A stretch of DNA of 34,096 bases, taken from a virus. Shown piece by piece: positions 971 through 33,815 of this stretch (the first letter of the stretch is position 1; each line of letters begins with the position of its first letter). The DNA is taken from IMG/VR virus record IMGVR_UViG_3300005518_000030, positions 1 to 34,096 of that record. One strand, written 5' to 3'. The position numbers and the translations under genes are program-made. The notes beneath the pieces are model-generated. The model saw only the letters and a list, made by a program, of their open reading frames with translations. It did not search any database and was not told the origin of the DNA.

Positions 971-1159
971 TCAAGCAGCCTTGCTCTGTTGCCGCTTGGC
1001 GAGCAGTGCGGCGACGTCCGAGACGGCGTACCAAGCCTGCCGGGGCGTGCCACCCGAGCGCTGCAGCTGGCCGCGATGGACGAGCAGGCGAACACCTCCG
1101 AGGGTGATGCCGAGCTGCTGCGCGGTCTGGTGTGCGGTGAGGTGGCCGGGCCGGATCAT
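971..1159 (-). CDS. small helix-turn-helix protein, excisionase-like
   Basis: A 62-residue protein made almost entirely of a MerR/excisionase-type HTH: LTAHQTAQQLGIT is the first helix pair, VRLLVHRGQLQ the recognition region, and RQAWYAVSDVAALLA the wing and last helix. I chose ATG at 1159 because GGAG lies six bases upstream; an ATG at 1171 is in frame but badly spaced. It is the last gene of the transfer-like operon, and the 199-bp gap before it holds the GAAACC repeats. It may bind those repeats, or act as a recombination directionality factor; neither is shown. Serine-integrase directionality factors are very varied, so the second idea is weak. Confidence 0.7.
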   Translation of the reverse strand: MIRPGHLTAHQTAQQLGITLGGVRLLVHRGQLQRSGGTPRQAWYAVSDVAALLAKRQQSKAA

Positions 1160-1220
1160 CTGCGACTCCATGCCCCCATGATGCGGCAGTGATGTCGGCT
1201 GCACAGGGTGTCTGGAGCAC

Positions 1221-1347
1221 GGGTTTCCCCGGGATTCCGGGCCTGTGCGGCGAGGCCCGAAACCCGAAACTGTGCAGCTCAGCCTCGATATCGGGGGCGA
1301 AACCGGTTTCGGGGTGAGGTGAAACCGCAGCCCCGTCCCGAAACCGG
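1221..1347. repeat. GAAACC repeat cluster, clt-like candidate
   Basis: Seven copies of GAAAC(C) lie in about 125 bp: 1222-1227 (reverse), 1259-1264, 1266-1270 (GAAAC only), 1299-1304, 1305-1310 (reverse), 1321-1326 and 1340-1345. Several extend to CCCGAAACC. The copies at 1298-1311 form the perfect palindrome CGAAACCGGTTTCG. The cluster starts 14 bp after the stop of the TraB-like gene. In Streptomyces plasmids the clt locus, a set of short repeats bound by the TraB C-terminal winged helix, lies near traB. A regulator operator or a second replication site is also possible. Confidence 0.6.
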
Positions 1348-1358
1348 CTCGACGGCCT

Positions 1359-3476
1359 CTACTCGGCGTCCTCGACGGTGGGCAGATCGGCGTAGCGCAG
1401 GCCCTTGGCGCCTCCGCAGCACTCCCTGATCGTGAGTTGCCGGGTGGACACCTTGAACGGCTTGAGGGCCGCGCTGAGCGCCGTGGACGACCCTGCGGCG
1501 TCCATGTCCAGCCACGGCTTGTACAGGTCCGGCCGCAGCCGGGCGAGGGCCTCGACAAGGCGGTGCGAGTGCACGGCCTCCACTCCGTCCGGCCATACGG
1601 CCCGCAGGTGGTCGACCACAGTCTCCACATCGAGGTCGACGACCTGTGCGCCGACGGACTGCCCGGTGAGCGTGCCGGCCGCGGTGCGCAGCGCCAGGGC
1701 GCGCTTGGCGATGTCCTCGGCTTCGGTCTGCTTGATGAACGCGGCGCGGACGGTGATGCCTTCGCGACCGCGGGCAAGGATGCCGGTGCCCTGCTCGTCG
1801 ATGCTGATGTCGGTGGCGCGCAGGCCGCGTTCGAAGGCGCTGGTGCCGAGCACGTTGTTGTTCGCCCTCCAGTCCATGACGGCCAGGCAGAGGCGTGTGC
1901 CGACCGAGCTGGACACCGACGTGGGCAGGGACGGGGCGTCGGGGTTCTGGGTGAGCAGGATGAGGATGATGCCGTAGGCGCGGGCCTTCTTGATCAGGCG
2001 GGTGGCCAGGGCCGCGGCCTCGTCCTTGTACTCGGCGTGGGTGAACAGCTCCTGCACCTCGTCGATGACGATGACGCGCGGGCCGAGGTTCTGCTCGGGG
2101 TACTTCTCGGCGAGCGCGCGGGTGACCTTGCGGCCCTCGGGCACCTCGGAGGCGGGCAGGGAGCGCACGAACGCGGCGCGGCGCTGGTACTCGGCGATCC
2201 CGGAGCGCATGCCGCCCAGGGCGGCCTCAAGGTCTTCGTCCTCGTCGCCGGACACGTAGCGGTGGCAGATCGGCTTGACGGAGTCGAGGTCGCCGGATCC
2301 CTTGAGCTCGTAGATCCAGAGTTCGGCGGTGGGGTCGAGGGCGACGCCGAGGACGATGGCGAGCGCGCAGGACGTCTTGCCGGAGCCGGGGATGCCTCCG
2401 ACCAGCAGGTTTGAGTACATGAGGGTGATCTCGACGAGGTTGCCGCGCGGGTCGAAGCCGTAGGGCAGGGGCTCGTACACGTCGGCCTGGCCCTCTTTCA
2501 TGAGGGGCCACAGCTTGCGGCCGGCCTTGGCGGGGTCGCGCTGCGCCACCCACAGGACGAGGCGGCCGGGGTGGGCGGAGCGGTCGCCCTCGGGCCACAC
2601 GGTGCTGATGGGGCGGCGCATGGCGGCGGCGAGCGCGGCCCGCTTCTCCAGTACGGCGGTGGCTTCGATGCCGGGCGGGAGGTCGACCTCGGCGCGCCAT
2701 CCGGGGCCGTCGCGCATGACCTCGGAGGCGAACTCGACGCCGCGGCGCCCCTTCTTGCCCTCGATGCCGATGGCGGCGAGTGCGTCGAACACCTCGGTGG
2801 AGTCGAGGCGGCGCAGCACGTTGGTGGCCACGTAGCGGGTGATGAGGGGCTTGTCGCCCTTCTTGCCGGCCACGCCGACCAGGGCGGTGGCCGTGAGGGC
2901 GGCGGTGAGCGTCCAGCCGGGCACGAGGAACGCGCTGACCAGCGTGGTGATGCCGACGGCGGTGGCCACGGCCAGGGAGGCGATGCGCCGTGGCCGGACG
3001 CGGCGGGAGTGCTCGCGGGAGAGGGCGAGCCACGCTTCGATGTCCGCGGACGCGGCGGCCTTGGCCTCAACGGGCCGGGCCTCGGTGTCGGCGACCCACT
3101 TGCCCCAGCGGACTAGGAGGCGGCCAGCGCCGCGGGGTGCCCGGAGCAGCAGGCGGGTGAGGTACACGGGCGCACGCACGGCGTGGAAGCCGGTGACGTG
3201 GACGTAGTAGGACGCCGTCCAGCGGGCGGCGTCCACGAACTCGGCGGCGTTGCGCAGGAACGTGGGGATGACGGGCGGGGCTTCGGCGAGGTAGGCCTGC
3301 TTCTCGGCGATCCATGTACCTGCGGCTGGGGCTTCGTTGGGCGGGTCGACGGGTCGGGGCTCGGCGTTCTCGACGACTTCGATGATGGTCTCGGTCAGGG
3401 TGTCCTGCGCGTCCTTGAGGAGCGTGGGTGCGTCCGGGGGTGCGTCCTTGTGGAGCTGGACGACGTTGTTCGTCAT
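1359..3476 (-). CDS. FtsK/SpoIIIE-type DNA translocase, TraB-like
   Basis: A 705-residue hexameric motor of the FtsK/HerA class. Walker A is GGIPGSGKTS at about 360-369, Walker B is RVIVIDEVQ at about 467-475, and LLTQNP follows near 507. Two hydrophobic segments at about 163-203 would anchor it in the membrane. The C-terminus (about 615-700, with SSTALSAALKPF and the wing up to LRYADLP) resembles the winged helix of Streptomyces TraB/TraSA, which binds clt repeats and moves double-stranded DNA between hyphae. The length and layout fit that family better than chromosomal FtsK. The upstream Spd-like genes and downstream repeats support a transfer role. A role in prophage segregation is the alternative. 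Ribosome site AGGAAG precedes the ATG. Confidence 0.88.
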   Translation of the reverse strand: MTNNVVQLHKDAPPDAPTLLKDAQDTLTETIIEVVENAEPRPVDPPNEAPAAGTWIAEKQAYLAEAPPVIPTFLRNAAEFVDAARWTASYYVHVTGFHAVRAPVYLTRLLLRAPRGAGRLLVRWGKWVADTEARPVEAKAAASADIEAWLALSREHSRRVRPRRIASLAVATAVGITTLVSAFLVPGWTLTAALTATALVGVAGKKGDKPLITRYVATNVLRRLDSTEVFDALAAIGIEGKKGRRGVEFASEVMRDGPGWRAEVDLPPGIEATAVLEKRAALAAAMRRPISTVWPEGDRSAHPGRLVLWVAQRDPAKAGRKLWPLMKEGQADVYEPLPYGFDPRGNLVEITLMYSNLLVGGIPGSGKTSCALAIVLGVALDPTAELWIYELKGSGDLDSVKPICHRYVSGDEDEDLEAALGGMRSGIAEYQRRAAFVRSLPASEVPEGRKVTRALAEKYPEQNLGPRVIVIDEVQELFTHAEYKDEAAALATRLIKKARAYGIILILLTQNPDAPSLPTSVSSSVGTRLCLAVMDWRANNNVLGTSAFERGLRATDISIDEQGTGILARGREGITVRAAFIKQTEAEDIAKRALALRTAAGTLTGQSVGAQVVDLDVETVVDHLRAVWPDGVEAVHSHRLVEALARLRPDLYKPWLDMDAAGSSTALSAALKPFKVSTRQLTIRECCGGAKGLRYADLPTVEDAE

Positions 3477-4058: not shown

Positions 4059-4234
4059 GCCGCCCACCCCCGGATGCGGCGGGTGATCCGCGGCCAGGCC
4101 CAGATGCCGACGGCGGCCACGATGACGGCGGGCTGCGAGATGACCGCGGCGACCACGCCCAGGACGACTGCGAGCAGCGCCGGGTAGGCGACGAGGAGAC
4201 CGAGGATCGCTCCGAAGATCAGACGCAGCATCAT
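4055..4234 (-). CDS. 59-residue membrane protein, Spd-like candidate
   Basis: A very hydrophobic protein of 59 residues: MMLRLIFGAILGLLVAYPAL, then a second helix ending in VGIWAWPRITRRIRGW with a basic, aromatic tail. It probably forms two membrane helices joined by a short turn. Start and stop overlap both neighbours through ATGA (4231-4234 and 4055-4058), so it is translated together with them. The function is unknown; the company of TraB-like and DUF2637-like proteins suggests a membrane part of a transfer or spread system. Confidence 0.68.
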   Translation of the reverse strand: MMLRLIFGAILGLLVAYPALLAVVLGVVAAVISQPAVIVAAVGIWAWPRITRRIRGWAA

Positions 4235-4905
4235 GTCCGGGCCTCCTGGGGGAGCTTGTCGGGGTGGAAGAGGTTGTGTCCGCGGGGCGTCTTCTCGTGG
4301 ACTTCGAGGCGTCCGTCGGCGACCCAGCTGCGGATGGTGGAGGGGTCGACGCCGTACCGGTCGGCGACGTCCTTGGACGTGAGTAGGACGGGCGGAGGCG
4401 GGGGAGCGTCCTCGGTGTCCTGGCCCGTCCCGGGTTCGAGCTCCCGCGTCTCGTCGGTGTCCTCCTCGTCGTCGCGGTCGAGGGTGTACTCGACGGGCTC
4501 CGGGACGCGGGGCGTCTGCTCGGGGACGGGCGGGACGGTGGCGGGCGGGGTGGCGTCCCGTGGCGTCTGCCTGGCGAGCGCGTGCGTCCGCCACAGGCTG
4601 ATCGGTACGAGCAGTGAGACGACGGTGACGAGGTCGAGGCTCACCTTGATGACGCCTGCCTCCAGCGCGTGGGCGGCGACCTGGGCGGCGCCCATGAGGG
4701 CGAGGGACAGGGCGATGTCGAACGCCCGGAACCAGCGCAGCGCGGCGATCACGTAGCAGTCGAGGGCGAGCGGCAGCATGACCGCGATGGGCGGCTTGGC
4801 GCCGAGGCGGCGGGCGAGTTCGTACTCGGCGGTCGCGGTGAAGGCGATGCCGGCGGCGAGTGAGCCTCTGCGTACCCAGGTGCCGACCTGGTTGAGGTTG
4901 CTCAC
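4231..4905 (-). CDS. DUF2637/SpdB-like membrane protein with C-terminal HTH
   Basis: A 224-residue protein in two parts. Residues 1 to about 120 form a four-helix membrane domain (SLAAGIAFTATAEYELARRL; PIAVMLPLALDCYVIAALRW; IALSLALMGAAQVAAHALE; LVTVVSLLVPISLW), resembling the DUF2637 proteins common beside traB in actinomycete plasmids, AICEs and some phages. A Pro/acidic linker (TPPATVPPVPEQ to DDEEDTDETRELE) leads to a MerR-like HTH (LTSKDVADRYGVDPSTIRSW VADGRLEV). This layout would tether a DNA-binding domain to the membrane. The start is GTG, overlapping the upstream stop (GTGA). Confidence 0.75.
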   Translation of the reverse strand: MSNLNQVGTWVRRGSLAAGIAFTATAEYELARRLGAKPPIAVMLPLALDCYVIAALRWFRAFDIALSLALMGAAQVAAHALEAGVIKVSLDLVTVVSLLVPISLWRTHALARQTPRDATPPATVPPVPEQTPRVPEPVEYTLDRDDEEDTDETRELEPGTGQDTEDAPPPPPVLLTSKDVADRYGVDPSTIRSWVADGRLEVHEKTPRGHNLFHPDKLPQEART

Positions 4906-7792: not shown

Positions 7793-8181
7793 GAGTTCTC
7801 CTTGGTGGTTTCTTCCTGGGATTCCAGGAGGTCGGTGTTGACGGCGCCGCCGATGGACACCCACAGGCTGTGGGCTTGGGCGCTGGTGAAGTCGCGGCGG
7901 CGGGCCTGGTCTTGGAGCTCGGCGTAGGTGAGGCCGAGCCGGTCGAGTGAGCGGCGGGCCGCGGCGTGGAACTCGGCCTCGGTCACCTCGACCACGACGT
8001 CGTCGGCGTCGTCGGGCTCACTGGCCGACTGGGTGTCGGCCTGTCGGCGGAGTTTGGCCGCGTGCCGGATGGCGAGGCCGCGTTGGCGGGCGGCGGCGAG
8101 GGCTGCACGCCGCCGCTTGTTCGCCTCGGCGCGGGCGCGGGCGGCGGCGATCTTCTCGGCCACGACGTCGTCGACGTTCAC
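7789..8181 (-). CDS. basic helical protein, unknown
   Basis: A 130-residue protein. The N-terminal half is a long Arg/Ala-rich helix (AEKIAAARARAEANKRRRAA LAAARQRG), likely a coiled coil or nucleic-acid-binding segment. The second half is acidic then helical (DDADDVVVEVTEAEFHAAAR; LGLTYAELQDQARRR). The GTG start at 8181 has no ribosome site of its own. An 11-codon frame (8178-8213) with a strong GGAGG ends on it, so translation may be coupled. The gene lies directly downstream of the iteron array. Confidence 0.65.
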   Translation of the reverse strand: MNVDDVVAEKIAAARARAEANKRRRAALAAARQRGLAIRHAAKLRRQADTQSASEPDDADDVVVEVTEAEFHAAARRSLDRLGLTYAELQDQARRRDFTSAQAHSLWVSIGGAVNTDLLESQEETTKENS

Positions 8182-8213: not shown

Positions 8214-8240
8214 GGGGCGCCTCCTGTGGCGGCTGTGGCG

Positions 8241-8457
8241 ACCTCGTCCCGGCGGCTCGCGCTTCCGAGGCCCTTGTCTGTGACCTCGTCCTCGTCCCAC
8301 CTAAAGAAGTGGGACGAGGGACGAGGTGTCACGACCTCGTCCGGGACGAGGTGGGACGAGGTGGGACGAGGTCATTTACGAGGGATAGCGATCATGGTCG
8401 GTAGCCAAAGGCGGACAGAGTGGGTCAATCGACCTCGTCCGGGGGTCGGGACGAGGT
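8241..8457. repeat. GGGACGAGGT iteron array, origin candidate
   Basis: Eleven copies, exact or one base short, of the 10-bp unit GGGACGAGGT in both orientations. Forward copies lie at 8311, 8318, 8343, 8353, 8363 and 8448, with 8343-8372 being three exact tandem units. Reverse copies (ACCTCGTCCC) lie at 8241, 8283, 8290, 8334 and 8432. Inverted pairs form hairpins: an 11-bp stem at 8290-8319 with an A-rich 8-nt loop, and ACCTCGTCCGGGACGAGGT at 8334-8352. A locally less GC-rich patch follows at 8373-8411. The array fills the 243-bp gap next to the helicase-like gene and enters its 3' end. It looks like a replication origin; an operator cluster is the alternative. Confidence 0.68.
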
Positions 8458-9633
8458 CAACCGGCCTCCTTCCTCGACCGGATTGCCCGCTTCTGTACCT
8501 GCGGACGGGATGCTGTGGAGGACGGCGCCGCGCGCGCCTCGCTCGGTGCCGATCCGGCCCTCATCAACGAGGGCGGCAACGGCCTGCCGGATGTCCGCCG
8601 CACGGCCGCTCACGCGGTCCTCGATGCCCTTGCCCGTCAGCGGCTCCCGGGCGCCCGTCAGGGCATCGAGCACCTTCCGCTTGAGGGCGTTGATGCGCCG
8701 CTGCTCCTCGTCGGCCTCGCGGTCCTCCTCGTCGCGCTGGATGGGCGCGTACAGGTGAGCCTCGGCGAACTCGGCGGACTCGGACTTGACGACGAGGTCG
8801 GCGTACCAGTGCATGCCGCTGGAGTGCGACAGTCCGTTCTTACGGATCTGGCCGGGCCGGTCCTTGGCGACGCGGATGGTGGACTTGCCGGTGACACCGA
8901 TGCCGAAGGGGCGCCGGTTCTCCAGCATGTACATCACGCCATTGAGGCCGTTGAGCTTGTGGACGCCGCCGATGCTGTACCGGCCGCGGTTCTCCGCCGA
9001 CTTGACGACGTGGTCGAGGGTGACGACCGCAGCCCCGGAGTTCATGAGCGGGCGAAGCAGCCGGCGGCCGAACTTGGCGACGTCGGTGTTGTCCTTCAGC
9101 TCCAGTCCGAAGAGGCTCATGCCCTCGGTCACGCCGTCGACGATGGCGAGGGTCGGGCTGTGCTCCAGCACCATCGCAAGGTCGATGAGGTCGATGTCGC
9201 TGGGGCTGTTCTCGGGCCGGACGTAGTGGAAGCGCTCCAGCACGTCGTCGGGGCGCGCGCCGAGGCAGAGCAGCCGGCCGACCACGCCGCCCGCATCGTC
9301 CTCGAAGTCGAGGTACAGGACGTGGTTGCCGTCGTTGATCTCCTGCAGGCAGGCGATGAGCGCGAACCACGTCTTGCCCGCCTCGGACTCGCTGGCGACG
9401 CTGTTCATCCGGCCCGGATAGAACAGGCCGACACCGTCGTCCCGGCGCCCCACCGAGGGCTGCGGCGGCCGGTACGAGCCGTCGAGGACCGACCGCAGGT
9501 CTTGGGCCGCCCACGTGCGCGGCGCAGGCTCCTTCTCGGCGGCTGCGCCATCCACGTCTTGCCAGTCGACGGGCGGCTCCTCGCCGTCCGGGCCGAAGTA
9601 GGCGTCCATGGCCTGGTCGAAGTCGGTCGTCAC
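8425..9633 (-). CDS. RecA-fold replicative ATPase, RepA/helicase-like
   Basis: A 402-residue RecA-fold ATPase of the AAA_25/RepA type. The P-loop SESEAGKT is at about 81-88, LYLDFEDD near 106-113, and a Walker B-like LAIVDG near 162-167, followed by VVTLDHVVKS and SIGGVHKLNG, which resemble the later motifs of hexameric RepA helicases. A C-terminal winged helix (about 320-380: LKRKVLDALTGAREPLTGKG, IRQAVAALVDEGRIG) may bind DNA. It starts with GTG at 9633, overlapping the primase stop (GTGA). Its last codons lie inside the iteron array, as in replicons whose initiator gene abuts the origin. It probably acts as helicase loader or helicase with the Prim-Pol. Confidence 0.82.
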   Translation of the reverse strand: MTTDFDQAMDAYFGPDGEEPPVDWQDVDGAAAEKEPAPRTWAAQDLRSVLDGSYRPPQPSVGRRDDGVGLFYPGRMNSVASESEAGKTWFALIACLQEINDGNHVLYLDFEDDAGGVVGRLLCLGARPDDVLERFHYVRPENSPSDIDLIDLAMVLEHSPTLAIVDGVTEGMSLFGLELKDNTDVAKFGRRLLRPLMNSGAAVVTLDHVVKSAENRGRYSIGGVHKLNGLNGVMYMLENRRPFGIGVTGKSTIRVAKDRPGQIRKNGLSHSSGMHWYADLVVKSESAEFAEAHLYAPIQRDEEDREADEEQRRINALKRKVLDALTGAREPLTGKGIEDRVSGRAADIRQAVAALVDEGRIGTERGARGAVLHSIPSAGTEAGNPVEEGGRLTSSRPPDEVD

Positions 9634-10556
9634 GCCACCCACCTCCGGTCGCTGGGACGCGTGGCGGCACTGTCGAACGACGCCCGCGCCTCGGAGTCGG
9701 TGAGGCCTACGGCGGACGCTGCGGACAGCAGACCCATCTCGGCCTCGGCGAGGTCGATGAGGTTCTGCTCGGCCAGCTCGTGCGCACGGCAGGCCGCGAA
9801 GAAGAAGGCGTTGTTGCGGTGGCCCTCGTGTGCGTCCATCACGTGCTGGACCAGGTCAGCCACCGTCCACAGACGGCCGCCGCCGGGCCGCTGCTGGCGC
9901 CGCTCCTGGGTGGGAAAGCGGTGCCGCGGTGTGGCGCGCGGCGGCGGGAGCTGGCGACGCCGCTTACGCGGCAGAAGCGCCTCGGGCCAGTCGACGGTCG
10001 GCGCGATGTACGAACCGTCGCCTACCCACTGGTAGCGGCCGCCGGAGGAGTGCACGGACGGGGCGAGCAGGATGTAGCCGTTGTGCTTGAAGTCGATGCC
10101 GGGCCCGCCCAGGCCGGGCAGGTCGAAGTCGGGGGAGCGGTACAGCTGGTGCAGCCCGCCGCCGCCGGTGAGTTGCATGGTGGTGCCGGGCAGCACGCCG
10201 ACGCGCTCCTCGAGGGCGCGGTACGACTCGTTGCCGCCGTTGCGCGGGTCGATGTCGACGACGGCCCAGCCGTTCAGCTTGCACGGGGCGCCGATGTTCG
10301 CGTCGGGTTCCTCGCGCCACCACTTGCGGACGAGGTCGAGGTCGGTGGTGGCTGCCCAGAAGCCGTGACAGGTGGGGACGCCGCACTGGCAGTTCTCGGG
10401 CCGGTGCTTGACGTAGAGGCTGCTCTGCCGGTCGCAGCGCGGGCAGTTGGCGTAGGGGGTCTTGTTCCGCCGGACGCGGAAGACCTTGATGCCCGCCTCG
10501 GCATAGGCCTCGGCGGCGGCCGGGAGCTTGGCGGGGATACGGAGGCCGACGGTCAC
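9630..10556 (-). CDS. bifunctional DNA primase/polymerase (Prim-Pol)
   Basis: A 308-residue archaeo-eukaryotic-type Prim-Pol. The N-terminal domain has the metal-binding DID at about 101-103 (WAVVDIDPRNGG), GGGLHQLY at about 133-140, and DFKHNGYILLAPS near 155. Cysteines at about 38, 41, 56, 58 and 63 with His64 (CPRC, CQCGVPTCH) look like an inserted zinc knot. After about residue 215 a short helical region follows (DLVQHVMDAHEGHRNNAFFF AACRA), like the alpha-helical C-terminal domains of plasmid primases. Prim-Pols are found in corynephages, actinophages and some AICEs, where they initiate or prime replication. GTG start at 10556; the ribosome site is weak. Confidence 0.92.
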   Translation of the reverse strand: MTVGLRIPAKLPAAAEAYAEAGIKVFRVRRNKTPYANCPRCDRQSSLYVKHRPENCQCGVPTCHGFWAATTDLDLVRKWWREEPDANIGAPCKLNGWAVVDIDPRNGGNESYRALEERVGVLPGTTMQLTGGGGLHQLYRSPDFDLPGLGGPGIDFKHNGYILLAPSVHSSGGRYQWVGDGSYIAPTVDWPEALLPRKRRRQLPPPRATPRHRFPTQERRQQRPGGGRLWTVADLVQHVMDAHEGHRNNAFFFAACRAHELAEQNLIDLAEAEMGLLSAASAVGLTDSEARASFDSAATRPSDRRWVA

Positions 10557-13254: not shown

Positions 13255-13261
13255 GAAACGC

Positions 13262-14761
13262 CTACCGTTTCCACGCGAACACGACCGCGTCGTAGTCGAA
13301 ATACCCCCCGTCGGGCATGCGCCCTTGTCGCGGCGTCAGCAGCGTTACTGTGACGAGCGCCCGCAGCACCGAGCGTTTCCGGTCGAGTTCCAGCGCCTTC
13401 CACGCCTTCCGGACGTCCGGCGCTCCCACCAGGTCGACGAGCGGGTCCCGTGTCGCGGCGCGGGCCAGCTGCTGCGTGATGCCCTCCAGCTGGCCGCGGG
13501 CCGCGTCGGTGCCCTCGGTGAAGGCGGTCAGTTCGATCTGCCCCGCGCCGAACATGCCGCCCAAGTCCTTCATGCGCTGCCGGGCCTTTTCCGCCTCCGC
13601 CTGGAGGCCGGCCACGTCCACGTCGTCCGGGCCGGGCAGGAGAAGGTCGTGCGCGTCGTCGCGTGACAGCCGCTCGACGATGACGTCCTCGACGTACTGG
13701 TCGACGATCTCGGCGCGTCGACCGCCGCCATGCCCGGTCGGGCAGCGGTAGCTCGGATACTGGCGGCCGCCGGATTGCGTAACGGTCATGCCGGTGCCGC
13801 AGTTGTCGCGCCCGCACAGGTAGATCATCGAGCCGACCCATTTCGGCTGAGCACCGCGGTTCAGTACGCGCCCGGGGTCCTTCAGGATCGCCACGACCGC
13901 CCGGTACTTCGCCTCGTCGACGATCGGCTCCCACTTGCCGCGGCCGACCTCCTCGCCGCGATAGACCGCGATCCCGGCATTCCTGGGGCGCATCAGCATG
14001 TCCCGCATGTCCTGGTGAGTGACCGCGTTCCCGCGGGTCGTGGTGATCCCCTTGTCGCGGCACCACTTCACCAGCGACCGGATCGATCCGCCGGACAGGA
14101 TCTCGTCCGTCCACAAGCGGAGCGCTTCAGCCTCTTCGGGGACAGCCTTCAGCATGTCGAGTTCGGGCGCCTCGACTTCGTCGCCGGTCTTCCGGTCGAC
14201 CTTCTTGCGCACCTCGCCGGTAGGCACGCCCCAGCCGAACGGGCGGACTCCGCCTGCCCACTCGCCGGCCATGGCCTTCTGCTGCCGGGCGCGGGCCACC
14301 CTGTGCCCTTTGTGCTCGGACTCCTGGCGGGCGACGGCGCCGAGGATGCGCGCGGTCATCCGCCCGGACGGTGTGGCGAGGTCGATGGTTCCGGCCTGCA
14401 CGGTGTGCGTGGAGATACCGCGCCGGTCGGACAGGTCGATGTACTCCTCCAGTTCGACGATGGAGCGGGTGAGCCGGTCGGTGTGCCAGACGATGACGAC
14501 GGTGGCCTTGCCCTCGTCGAGGTCGGCGAGCATGCGCCGGTAGTCCTTGCGCAGCTTCCCTGAGAAGGCGCTCACGTCGTTGTCGGTGTATACCTCGACG
14601 ACCTGCCAGCCGTTACGTTCCGCGAGGGCTTCGCAGTCCTCGCGCTGCCGGTCGACGCCGAGGCCCGCGCCGGTGCGGTCCTGGCTGATGCGGCAGTAGA
14701 TGACGGCGCGGGTCTTCCCGCCTGCGGCAACGTCAACGGCGGAGCGAAGAGTTGGGCTCAT
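13262..14761 (-). CDS. int: large serine integrase
   Basis: A 499-residue serine recombinase. The catalytic serine is S26 in YCRISQDRTG, with the supporting WHTDRLTRS near 92-100 and the long helix ending in ARQESEHKGHRV. A recombinase domain follows (GVRPFGWGVP; GITTTRGNAVTHQDMRDMLM), then a zinc ribbon (C316, C321, C340, H344) and a coiled-coil segment (about 385-425), the part that controls integration versus excision. It is somewhat shorter than phiC31 Int. It would insert the phage at a host attB through the attP candidate just upstream (14780-14837). It is convergent with the repressor gene, whose stop lies 7 bp away. Confidence 0.95.
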   Translation of the reverse strand: MSPTLRSAVDVAAGGKTRAVIYCRISQDRTGAGLGVDRQREDCEALAERNGWQVVEVYTDNDVSAFSGKLRKDYRRMLADLDEGKATVVIVWHTDRLTRSIVELEEYIDLSDRRGISTHTVQAGTIDLATPSGRMTARILGAVARQESEHKGHRVARARQQKAMAGEWAGGVRPFGWGVPTGEVRKKVDRKTGDEVEAPELDMLKAVPEEAEALRLWTDEILSGGSIRSLVKWCRDKGITTTRGNAVTHQDMRDMLMRPRNAGIAVYRGEEVGRGKWEPIVDEAKYRAVVAILKDPGRVLNRGAQPKWVGSMIYLCGRDNCGTGMTVTQSGGRQYPSYRCPTGHGGGRRAEIVDQYVEDVIVERLSRDDAHDLLLPGPDDVDVAGLQAEAEKARQRMKDLGGMFGAGQIELTAFTEGTDAARGQLEGITQQLARAATRDPLVDLVGAPDVRKAWKALELDRKRSVLRALVTVTLLTPRQGRMPDGGYFDYDAVVFAWKR

Positions 14762-32255: not shown

Positions 32256-33815
32256 CTACGCGAACGAGTCGCTGATGTCGTAGTCCTCGATCACGTGCGG
32301 GCCCCGGATGAGCAGCGCCCAGCGGGCGAACGTGACCGCGCACAGCGGGCTGATCTCGGTCAGCGAACTGGTGCGGTCAAGCGTCCAGGCGTCACCGTTG
32401 CGGCGCGTCCTGGCGCCGTTCACCGCGGCCGTGAGCGGCACCTGGTCGAGGTGGACGACCGTGCCCTGGTTCATGGCGTCGGCCATCTGCCCGCACGCCT
32501 CCGTGATGTCCCCCGAGCGCATCACGGCCAAGTCGCCGCGCTCCGGATGCTCCTTGTCCTTGGGCACGTCGATGCCCGCGGCGATCAGGTCGTCGATGAG
32601 CGAGCCGGCCGGGGCGCCTGCCGAGGCGACTGCCACGGCAACCGGCTTCCACAGCTTGTGCAGCCGGGCCATGGCGGGCACCACCCAGTCCGTACCAGCA
32701 CGCCGCGCGACGACTTCCAGGTGCACCTTGCCGTCCGGCCGGCGACAGGCCGCGGCGATGGACGCGTGCTTGCGGTCCTGCGACACGTCGATCGCCAGGG
32801 CGACGTCGGTGTTTGCCTTGCTGCCAGCGTCGACCAGGCCGGGCCACTTGCCCTTGGGCACGTTCGGGTCGACGGGCGGCGTCGGCTTGCGGGTGCGGTT
32901 CAGGTAGGCCCGGTCGAACTCGGCCGGGTCCATCTTCTCCAGCTCGGCGGCAATGATCGCCTCGGTCACCGTGTGTCCCAGCGCGGGCAGCGTCGCCCGC
33001 CACGTAGCCGGGTCATCGCGCGGCATGTCCTCCGGGGCGAACCATTCGAAATACGCAGCCCGCGGCCGGACGGCCGCCGCGTCCTCGGCGAGCGCCTTGA
33101 ACAGCGCCTCGATCAGGGCGCGCCCCATCTCCCGCTTCTTGTTCAGCCAGCTGCTCTTCGTCGTACCGCCGGCGGACGCCCACCACAGCTGAGCCATGGC
33201 CCGGGTCAGCATGGCCGGACTGAACGCCTGCTCCAGGCGGTCGTCCTCGTGCGCGAACGCCTCGTCGATGAAACCCAGGTCGAGGGGCGGGCCGTGACCG
33301 GCCTTCTCCGTGTTCGCCGTGATGCCCATGCGGGACCGGGTCTTGCCCCACAGGATCGCCTCGTTGCCGTTCGACTTCCGGATGCGTGCCATCCGGGCCA
33401 GGTCGGAGCCGGAGATCTTCTCCCAGAACTCGTCTTCCCAGCGCTGCCGGGCCATGCCTCGGGTCTGGGCGGCGTACACGATGTTCTGCCGCTGCCAGGC
33501 TAGCGCCCGGTGCACCTGGGCGCCGAGGCACAGCTCCGTCTTGCCCTGCTGCCGGGACACCGACAGGCCGACCTCGCGGTGCGCGAACAGCCCGGTCTCG
33601 GGGTCGATCTCCAGGGCGACGTCGGACACGTACTTCTGCCACGGCATCGGCGGGGCGCCGAGCTTGGCCATGACCTTCCACAGCTTCGGCCCGAGCGACG
33701 GCCGGTCCGGATGCCGGGGCGTACCCCAGCGCGGCGGGCAGGTCAGCCCGTAGCGCTCGTACAGATCCTCGGCGAACTCAGTCGGGGGAGCCCAGGTCTC
33801 CGAGGTCGTCGTCAT
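32256..33815 (-). CDS. terminase large subunit
   Basis: A 519-residue packaging motor and nuclease. The ATPase Walker A is SRQQGKTE at about 87-94 and Walker B is LDLGFIDEAF with D184/E185. The nuclease half carries an acidic strand VALAIDVSQDRKHASIAAAC with D344 and a late acidic motif (NGARTRRNGDAWTLDR region). It should cut and pump the genome into proheads with the HNH protein as helper. Its first 38 bp overlap the end of the small-terminase candidate in another frame. Confidence 0.95.
   Translation of the reverse strand: MTTTSETWAPPTEFAEDLYERYGLTCPPRWGTPRHPDRPSLGPKLWKVMAKLGAPPMPWQKYVSDVALEIDPETGLFAHREVGLSVSRQQGKTELCLGAQVHRALAWQRQNIVYAAQTRGMARQRWEDEFWEKISGSDLARMARIRKSNGNEAILWGKTRSRMGITANTEKAGHGPPLDLGFIDEAFAHEDDRLEQAFSPAMLTRAMAQLWWASAGGTTKSSWLNKKREMGRALIEALFKALAEDAAAVRPRAAYFEWFAPEDMPRDDPATWRATLPALGHTVTEAIIAAELEKMDPAEFDRAYLNRTRKPTPPVDPNVPKGKWPGLVDAGSKANTDVALAIDVSQDRKHASIAAACRRPDGKVHLEVVARRAGTDWVVPAMARLHKLWKPVAVAVASAGAPAGSLIDDLIAAGIDVPKDKEHPERGDLAVMRSGDITEACGQMADAMNQGTVVHLDQVPLTAAVNGARTRRNGDAWTLDRTSSLTEISPLCAVTFARWALLIRGPHVIEDYDISDSFA

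Follow-up and report, generated by a model that had tools for sequence, protein, structure and literature searches.

The IMG/VR virus record IMGVR_UViG_3300005518_000030 (G000), whose 34,096 bases make up the window analyzed here, carries a dense cluster of GAAAC(C) repeats at positions 1,221 to 1,347, just beyond the 3′ end of a gene for an FtsK/TraB-like DNA translocase. Comparison with related elements makes it very probable that this segment is a cis-acting site of the clt type, recognized by the translocase that the phage or prophage itself encodes. A clt-like site tied to the C-terminus of this motor had been proposed in an original prediction made from the letters of the window, and the comparisons lend support to it, as the repeats are present in 44 of 44 viral relatives and the repeat unit appears to track the C-terminal domain of the motor across clades. 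What is new here is the phage setting, a repeat code that is specific to the motor, and the existence of orphan sites.

The segment occupies a 197-bp non-coding gap between two minus-strand genes, that of a small helix-turn-helix (HTH) protein (971-1171) and that of the motor (1359-3476). Seven GAAAC units, including the palindrome CGAAACCGGTTTCG, span 1222-1345 (123 bp), and 13 bp separate the nearest of them (1340-1345) from the stop codon of the motor gene (1359-1361), in good agreement with the ~14 bp originally given. Counts and shuffles bear out the dense packing: GAAAC occurs 17 times in the window on both strands, with seven copies starting at 1223-1340, and the maximum per 130-bp stretch was 3 in 300 dinucleotide-preserving shuffles of the window versus the 7 seen in the cluster. 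Because GAAAC is under-represented in the window (17 copies versus 28 expected), the cluster is not a composition effect. Six of the eight GAAACC copies fall within the cluster, where one of the seven units is GAAACT. The earlier description of all other copies as scattered and single holds for GAAACC, found elsewhere in the window only at 7807 and 33270, but not for GAAAC, which has a looser trio at 13255-13375. Short direct repeats accompanied by inverted repeats and clustered above chance are a feature of clt loci, and the segment has this composition.

Moving away from the motor stop, unit 1 (GAAACC, 1340-1345, plus strand) is one arm of an imperfect 17-bp dyad with unit 3, and unit 2 (GAAACC, 1321-1326, plus strand) lies within the loop of the dyad. 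Units 4 and 3 stand head to head in the palindrome (1298-1311), which is invariant in 53 of 53 unique sites. Beyond it are a central palindrome, GATATC (1287-1292), matched by TGATCA at the corresponding place in the sites of actinomycete integrative and conjugative elements (AICEs), and then, both on the plus strand, unit 5 (GAAAC followed by T, 1266-1270) and unit 6 (GAAACC, 1259-1264). These six units at fixed spacing form the conserved core of the site (1256-1347). The seventh, an inverted outlier on the minus strand (1222-1227), is poorly conserved and kept in ~6 of the 53 unique sites, and the proposed seven-unit cluster is thus retained here as a conserved cluster of six.

It is clear from the relatives that the segment is a conserved site. 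A search by motor similarity gave 44 viral loci, and pattern scans added further viral contigs and 17 loci in Streptomyces genomes. Approximately 60 relatives, with motors 52-99% identical to that of the window, share five or six units at near-fixed spacing, normally beginning ~14 bp past the motor stop, and 3-7 GAAAC units fall within 300 bp after the stop in each of the 44 viral loci. Measured from the half-site of the palindrome in the 53 unique sites, units stand at offsets of -41 (44 sites), -22 (50), -7 in inverted orientation (53), 0 (53), +33 (45), and +40 (45), with the outer units shifted outward by ~11-12 bp, near one helical turn, in the most divergent relatives. The association with the motor is strict: the strict site pattern was found in 9 of 393 sampled Streptomyces genomes with the motor immediately 5′ of the site in eight of the nine, and each of five whole Streptomyces genomes of 8-12 Mb contains the 13-mer GAAACCGGTTTCG at a single place. 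Like a clt, the site adjoins the tra gene on its 3′ side, the exceptions being locus L039, where a degenerate, partial site is inverted, locus L098, where an inserted gene separates the motor from a site 580 bp away, and loci L175 and L182, which have no motor beside the site. Among the viral relatives, none was found that keeps the motor and lacks the repeats, the partial and inverted site of L039 included. A match in a Clostridia metagenome-assembled genome (L090), in which only the core pattern is present, was set aside as a chance occurrence. A search of 50,697 phage records brought up no relative other than the FtsK of phage Gilgamesh, a partial match at 26.7%, and thus no isolate of the group was found among them.

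The same arrangement extends beyond this group with different repeat units. Motor homologs of AICEs, plasmids, and other prophages (~28-57% identical) have their own cluster of 6-8 bp repeats at the same place, with units such as CCGCTA(G), CTAGCA, CCGGTAGC(A), CTAGCGA, CGATAGC, CCCTCTA/TAGAGGG, AGGGAG, CGCTACC, and CCTGACC, and the strongest k-mer cluster of the whole locus was the region 3′ of the motor in 52 of 76 loci. As a positive control, the k-mer test on plasmid pSVH1 gave GACCCGGA as the top unit, with five of six copies on a 7.9-kb stretch lying just 3′ of traB. We take GACCCGGA to be the TraB recognition sequence (TRS) of pSVH1, reportedly defined by Vogelmann et al. 2011; PMC3583192 describes 8-bp motifs without printing the sequence, and a literature search for GACCCGGA gave no relevant paper in the collection searched.

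Across 2,701 motor pairs, the comparison supports the view that the repeat unit follows the C-terminal domain of the motor rather than its ATPase core. Unit similarity correlated with C-terminal identity when the ATPase core was controlled for (partial r of 0.52, with 0 of 300 label permutations as high), compared with only 0.11 for the ATPase core given the C-terminus. Natural mosaics present the same picture at the level of individual genes. In the pair L104 and L114, whose motor cores are 97% identical, nucleotide identity through the core is 0.80-0.96; it falls to 0.58-0.76 where the C-terminus is encoded and in the site, then recovers to 0.88-0.91 in the gene that comes next, and the unit switches from CGATAGC to CCGCTAG; the mosaic of L118 and L129 behaves in the same manner. 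What diverges in these mosaics is a single cassette, made up of the repeats and the end of the motor gene that encodes the C-terminus, with flanks that are ~90% identical on either side. The specificity of the unit for the C-terminal DNA-binding domain of the motor, a further feature of clt loci, is thus seen here as covariation, for which linkage is a partial confounder.

Linkage is also what an alternative based on replication would invoke, in which the segment serves the excised element in replication or partition, as its origin or its centromere-like site (iterons, a single-strand origin, or a centromere), and is co-inherited with the motor end through linkage only. A primase-polymerase (prim-pol) replication module is present, and the sequence alone leaves linkage possible, but the GGGACGAGGT cluster at 8239-8441, beside the helicase gene, is a better candidate for iterons, and the divergent tract of the mosaics covers the motor C-terminus together with the repeats, after which identity is high again. 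We regard an origin or partition site as quite unlikely.

Several observations weigh against the site being a clt recognized by the motor. The C-terminal coding end adjoins the site, so one recombination moves both, and the covariation partly reflects this linkage. The fold of the proposed reader is another such point, as the model of the C-terminal domain points only weakly to a winged helix: its structural neighbors are mostly winged-helix domains, but at Z scores up to 6.5 and with no Foldseek E value below 0.1, and searches with the model in Foldseek and VIA-align gave no significant match, with FtsK gamma domains not among the matches. Locus L105, the Pseudonocardia alni plasmid pPaSha2, is the only homolog examined that lacks a repeat cluster 3′ of its motor; this plasmid has an annotated holin, which raises the possibility that it is a further plasmid-phage whose site is located elsewhere. 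The k-mer test of plasmid pIJ101 showed nothing conspicuous 3′ of tra; the clt of pIJ101 is a different region, near korB (PMC3583192), and for this reason pIJ101 is not applicable as a second positive control. Finally, L175 (genome G039, site at 9789) and L182 (genome G306, site at 1501) have a GTTTC-type site without an adjacent motor. In both, CCCTCTA/TAGAGGG repeats, which belong to a different motor clade, follow this site at once, and each of the two genomes yielded a single TraB-like motor, with a GCTAG-type C-terminus and site. These loci could be prophages that are mobilized in trans, with a possible orphan dual clt, or they could be remnants.

The motor itself (1359-3476, minus strand) is a predicted FtsK/TraB-like translocase of 705 amino acids with predicted membrane helices and the P-loop GIPGSGKT. 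It scores 30.4 bits against PF01580, above the gathering score of 24, and is assigned to the FtsK/SpoIIIE-like family phrog_1358; its profile matches include FtsK (2iuu/2iut), and its predicted fold resembles those of the FtsK motor domain (6t8o) and of TcpA (6o1w). By profile and predicted fold, it belongs to the FtsK/SpoIIIE translocase superfamily. The label TraB, used in the original prediction, is appropriate in the sense of a TraB- or AICE Tra-like motor of the FtsK type but not as membership of the plasmid TraB family NF041214, against which the motor scores 22.1 bits where the curated cut-off is 800, the AICE homolog L104 falling below it as well (25.5). Given this score, the motor is filed here as TraB-like and not as an NF041214 member. 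Its C-terminal domain (residues 605-705, encoded at 1362-1664 on the minus strand), predicted to be a winged helix and proposed as the reader of the repeats, was modeled as helical with a short strand pair at a predicted local distance difference test score (pLDDT) of 78.8.

We infer that this domain binds the repeats, that binding seeds a hexamer, and that the motor transfers the DNA. The predicted C-terminal winged-helix domain would bind the units, read as RGTTTC, four of which would form a dyad-plus-palindrome block by the motor gene with two co-oriented units further out. Several C-terminal domains bound together would nucleate a hexameric ring on the circular element after its excision, and this motor ring would drive double-stranded DNA across the septum or into the hypha of a mating partner. 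The neighboring membrane protein with a C-terminal HTH_17 domain (4231-4905, minus strand; PF12728) is Spd-like by position and composition and may act as a spread protein that helps the element to spread.

Recognition of the repeats by the small HTH protein (971-1171, minus strand; MESQMIRPGHL..., phrog_2474) was an alternative raised at the outset, and under it, or under recognition by some other regulator, the segment would be an operator cluster. The HTH gene often lies ~187 bp after the site; in ~20 loci with the GTTTC-type (GAAAC) site, however, it either was displaced, by 400-780 bp, or was not found. An operator unit should also be constant wherever its HTH protein is present, and in L166 an HTH protein 62% identical to the one encoded at 971-1171 adjoins a site with TAGAGGG units, which belongs to a different motor clade. 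No sigma-70-like promoter was found in 900-1450, although for actinobacteria such a result carries limited weight. The repeat unit is not determined by the small HTH protein, whose role as recognizer finds no support, and an operator is a very unlikely explanation for the site.

The imperfect 17-bp dyad formed by units 1 and 3, with unit 2 in its loop, could in principle reflect a transcription terminator or an RNA element of the motor mRNA, and there is some covariation between its arms: 42 two-sided cells were counted versus 17.5 in shuffles, a value also above slid registers, essentially between two allele groups. The inner pairs, however, are broken in 17 of 39 sequences, and the hairpin does not include four of the units. 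No terminator-like site and no Rfam match was found in the segment, and the site is inverted in L039 and stands 580 bp away, behind the inserted gene, in L098. We have kept units 1 and 3 as a dyad and rejected the hairpin, given the broken inner pairs and the two allele groups, and we give a terminator or RNA element hardly any credence.

The position of the cluster, 1.5-4 kb upstream of the gene for the terminase large subunit (TerL) and between the motor and terminase genes in all prophages checked, would suit a packaging site, whether a cos or pac site or repeats bound by terminase in the manner of cosB. Such a site should be conserved with its terminase and located at a DNA end, and the repeat cluster is neither. 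The TerL proteins fall into at least 7 clusters at 35% identity, several of them without blastp similarity to the TerL of the window, and in those phages the site is nearly unchanged and the motor still 79-99% identical. AICEs without annotated phage genes have the same architecture as well. In addition, the ends of the record point to a different place for packaging. In an alignment with the prophages L006 and L008, window positions 1 and 34096 are neighbors, 25 bp apart, just upstream of the gene for the terminase small subunit (TerS). A conserved 25-bp stretch (about CCCGCGCCCAGCTTTTATTTTTCTC) bridges the window ends at 10229-10253 in L006 and 10655-10679 in L008, and the window and the separate contig L002 share the base at which they end. 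The circular junction 34096/1, just upstream of TerS, is therefore the probable cos region. On this basis, the record represents a nearly full-length phage genome that is opened at cos or close to it, with the repeat cluster ~1.26 kb away. A packaging function for the repeats is thus highly improbable. Genes downstream of the site also vary among loci. Taken together, the varying terminases, L166 and the displaced HTH genes, L098, and L039 exclude a terminase site and an HTH operator as explanations of the unit and make a terminator unlikely.

The gene content of the window is that of a temperate phage, nearly complete, equipped with replication and transfer genes like those of AICEs. The plasmid comparison of the original prediction is refined accordingly: the element is a phage genome and not a plasmid. 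An AICE is defined by an integrase (Int), a replication protein (Rep), and an FtsK-type Tra protein (Ghinet et al. 2011, PMC3218068), and the window has on one element a large serine integrase (13262-14761, minus strand; PF00239 and PF07508, phrog_95), a prim-pol, and the FtsK motor. The integrase occurs together with a terminase large subunit (32256-33815, minus strand; phrog_9), as expected for a temperate tailed phage, and of 34 related records, 30 have a phrog_9 terminase. The window also encodes a GntR regulator and, by calls made from position and sequence, portal, capsid, and tape-measure proteins. The AICE- or plasmid-like replication pair (8425-10556, minus strand) consists of the prim-pol (9630-10556; PF09250, E value of 6e-30) and an AAA helicase-like protein (8425-9642; PF13481, phrog_695). 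Beside the helicase gene, a second, unrelated dense repeat cluster (8239-8441) contains GGGACGAGGT / ACCTCGTCCC in direct and inverted orientation and is a candidate iteron-type replication origin, comparable to the iteron of plasmid pWTY27 with its GTGGGAAC repeats. Between the HTH and lipoprotein genes, the minus strand at 859-931 gave a sub-threshold match to 6C RNA (24.9 bits versus a gathering score of 47) and contains a long GC-rich inverted repeat, and it is probably a terminator. In the related prophages G010, G005, and G013, the TerL frame has one in-frame TGA in the matched stretch, and these may be decayed genes or carry an interruption.

The transfer sites of AICEs have so far been largely undefined, and the comparison presented here yields predicted sites and units for ~75 TraB-like motors. 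Naturally occurring chimeras of the C-terminus show, in addition, to which portion of the protein each DNA unit belongs. With these in hand, TraB specificity and mobilization between elements become directly testable questions. The results also suggest conjugation, besides virions, as a possible means of transport for a common group of Streptomyces prophages, and that motor-less prophages may hitch-hike. The broader proposal, that a widespread family of temperate Streptomyces phages moves both by virions and by TraB-type conjugation of double-stranded DNA, with motor-less prophages mobilized in trans at tandem orphan sites, is at this point a tentative one that we consider rather less likely to be true than false.

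Among known systems, the Streptomyces AICEs, with Int, prim-pol, FtsK-type Tra, GntR, and Spd proteins, have the same modules as the window, a homologous motor, and a repeat cluster of their own at this place, and what sets the window apart from them is its additional, full virion module (terminase, portal, capsid, and tape measure). Their sites contain two similar palindromes with a spacer between them, then the central TGATCA (GATATC in the phages), plus an CCACCTGC/GACCTGC motif. This motif is found at ~+100 to +150 from the motor stop in L104, L114-L174, and L188 (pSVH1) and is common to several motor clades; the window carries the variant GAGCTGCAC. Its core ACCTGC occurs within 260 bp of the motor stop in 40 of 47 AICE loci, in all eight of the TAGAGGG clade, and in pSVH1, with a background of 0.24 per 260 bp.

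The clt of pSVH1 resembles the site described here in being a cluster in non-coding DNA directly 3′ of the motor gene, mostly in one orientation with an inverted copy and with a GACCTGC motif nearby, and its repeats are recognized by the C-terminal winged HTH (wHTH) domain of the motor. TraB of pSVH1 is reported to read repeated 8-bp motifs through helix alpha3 of this domain (PMC3583192). The differences are the unit (GACCCGGA versus CGAAACC in the window), the motors, which are distantly related (~31% over the ATPase region), and the nature of pSVH1 as a plasmid without virion genes. An element that combines the two kinds of genes has its counterpart in the Streptomyces plasmid-phage pZL12, which, as cited in PMC3583192, is described as a phage genome with conjugal transfer genes. 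In pWTY27, the clt has been mapped experimentally (traA plus 175 bp) at exactly this position, and its TGACACC repeats were footprinted by TraA (PMC3583192). As in the window, the site consists of the tra 3′ end and adjacent non-coding DNA, here with four 7-bp repeats and inverted repeats, on an element with prim-pol replication (PMC3583192). It differs in its unit, TGACACC, in belonging to a theta plasmid, and in being an experimentally proven clt, whereas the site in the window is a predicted one.
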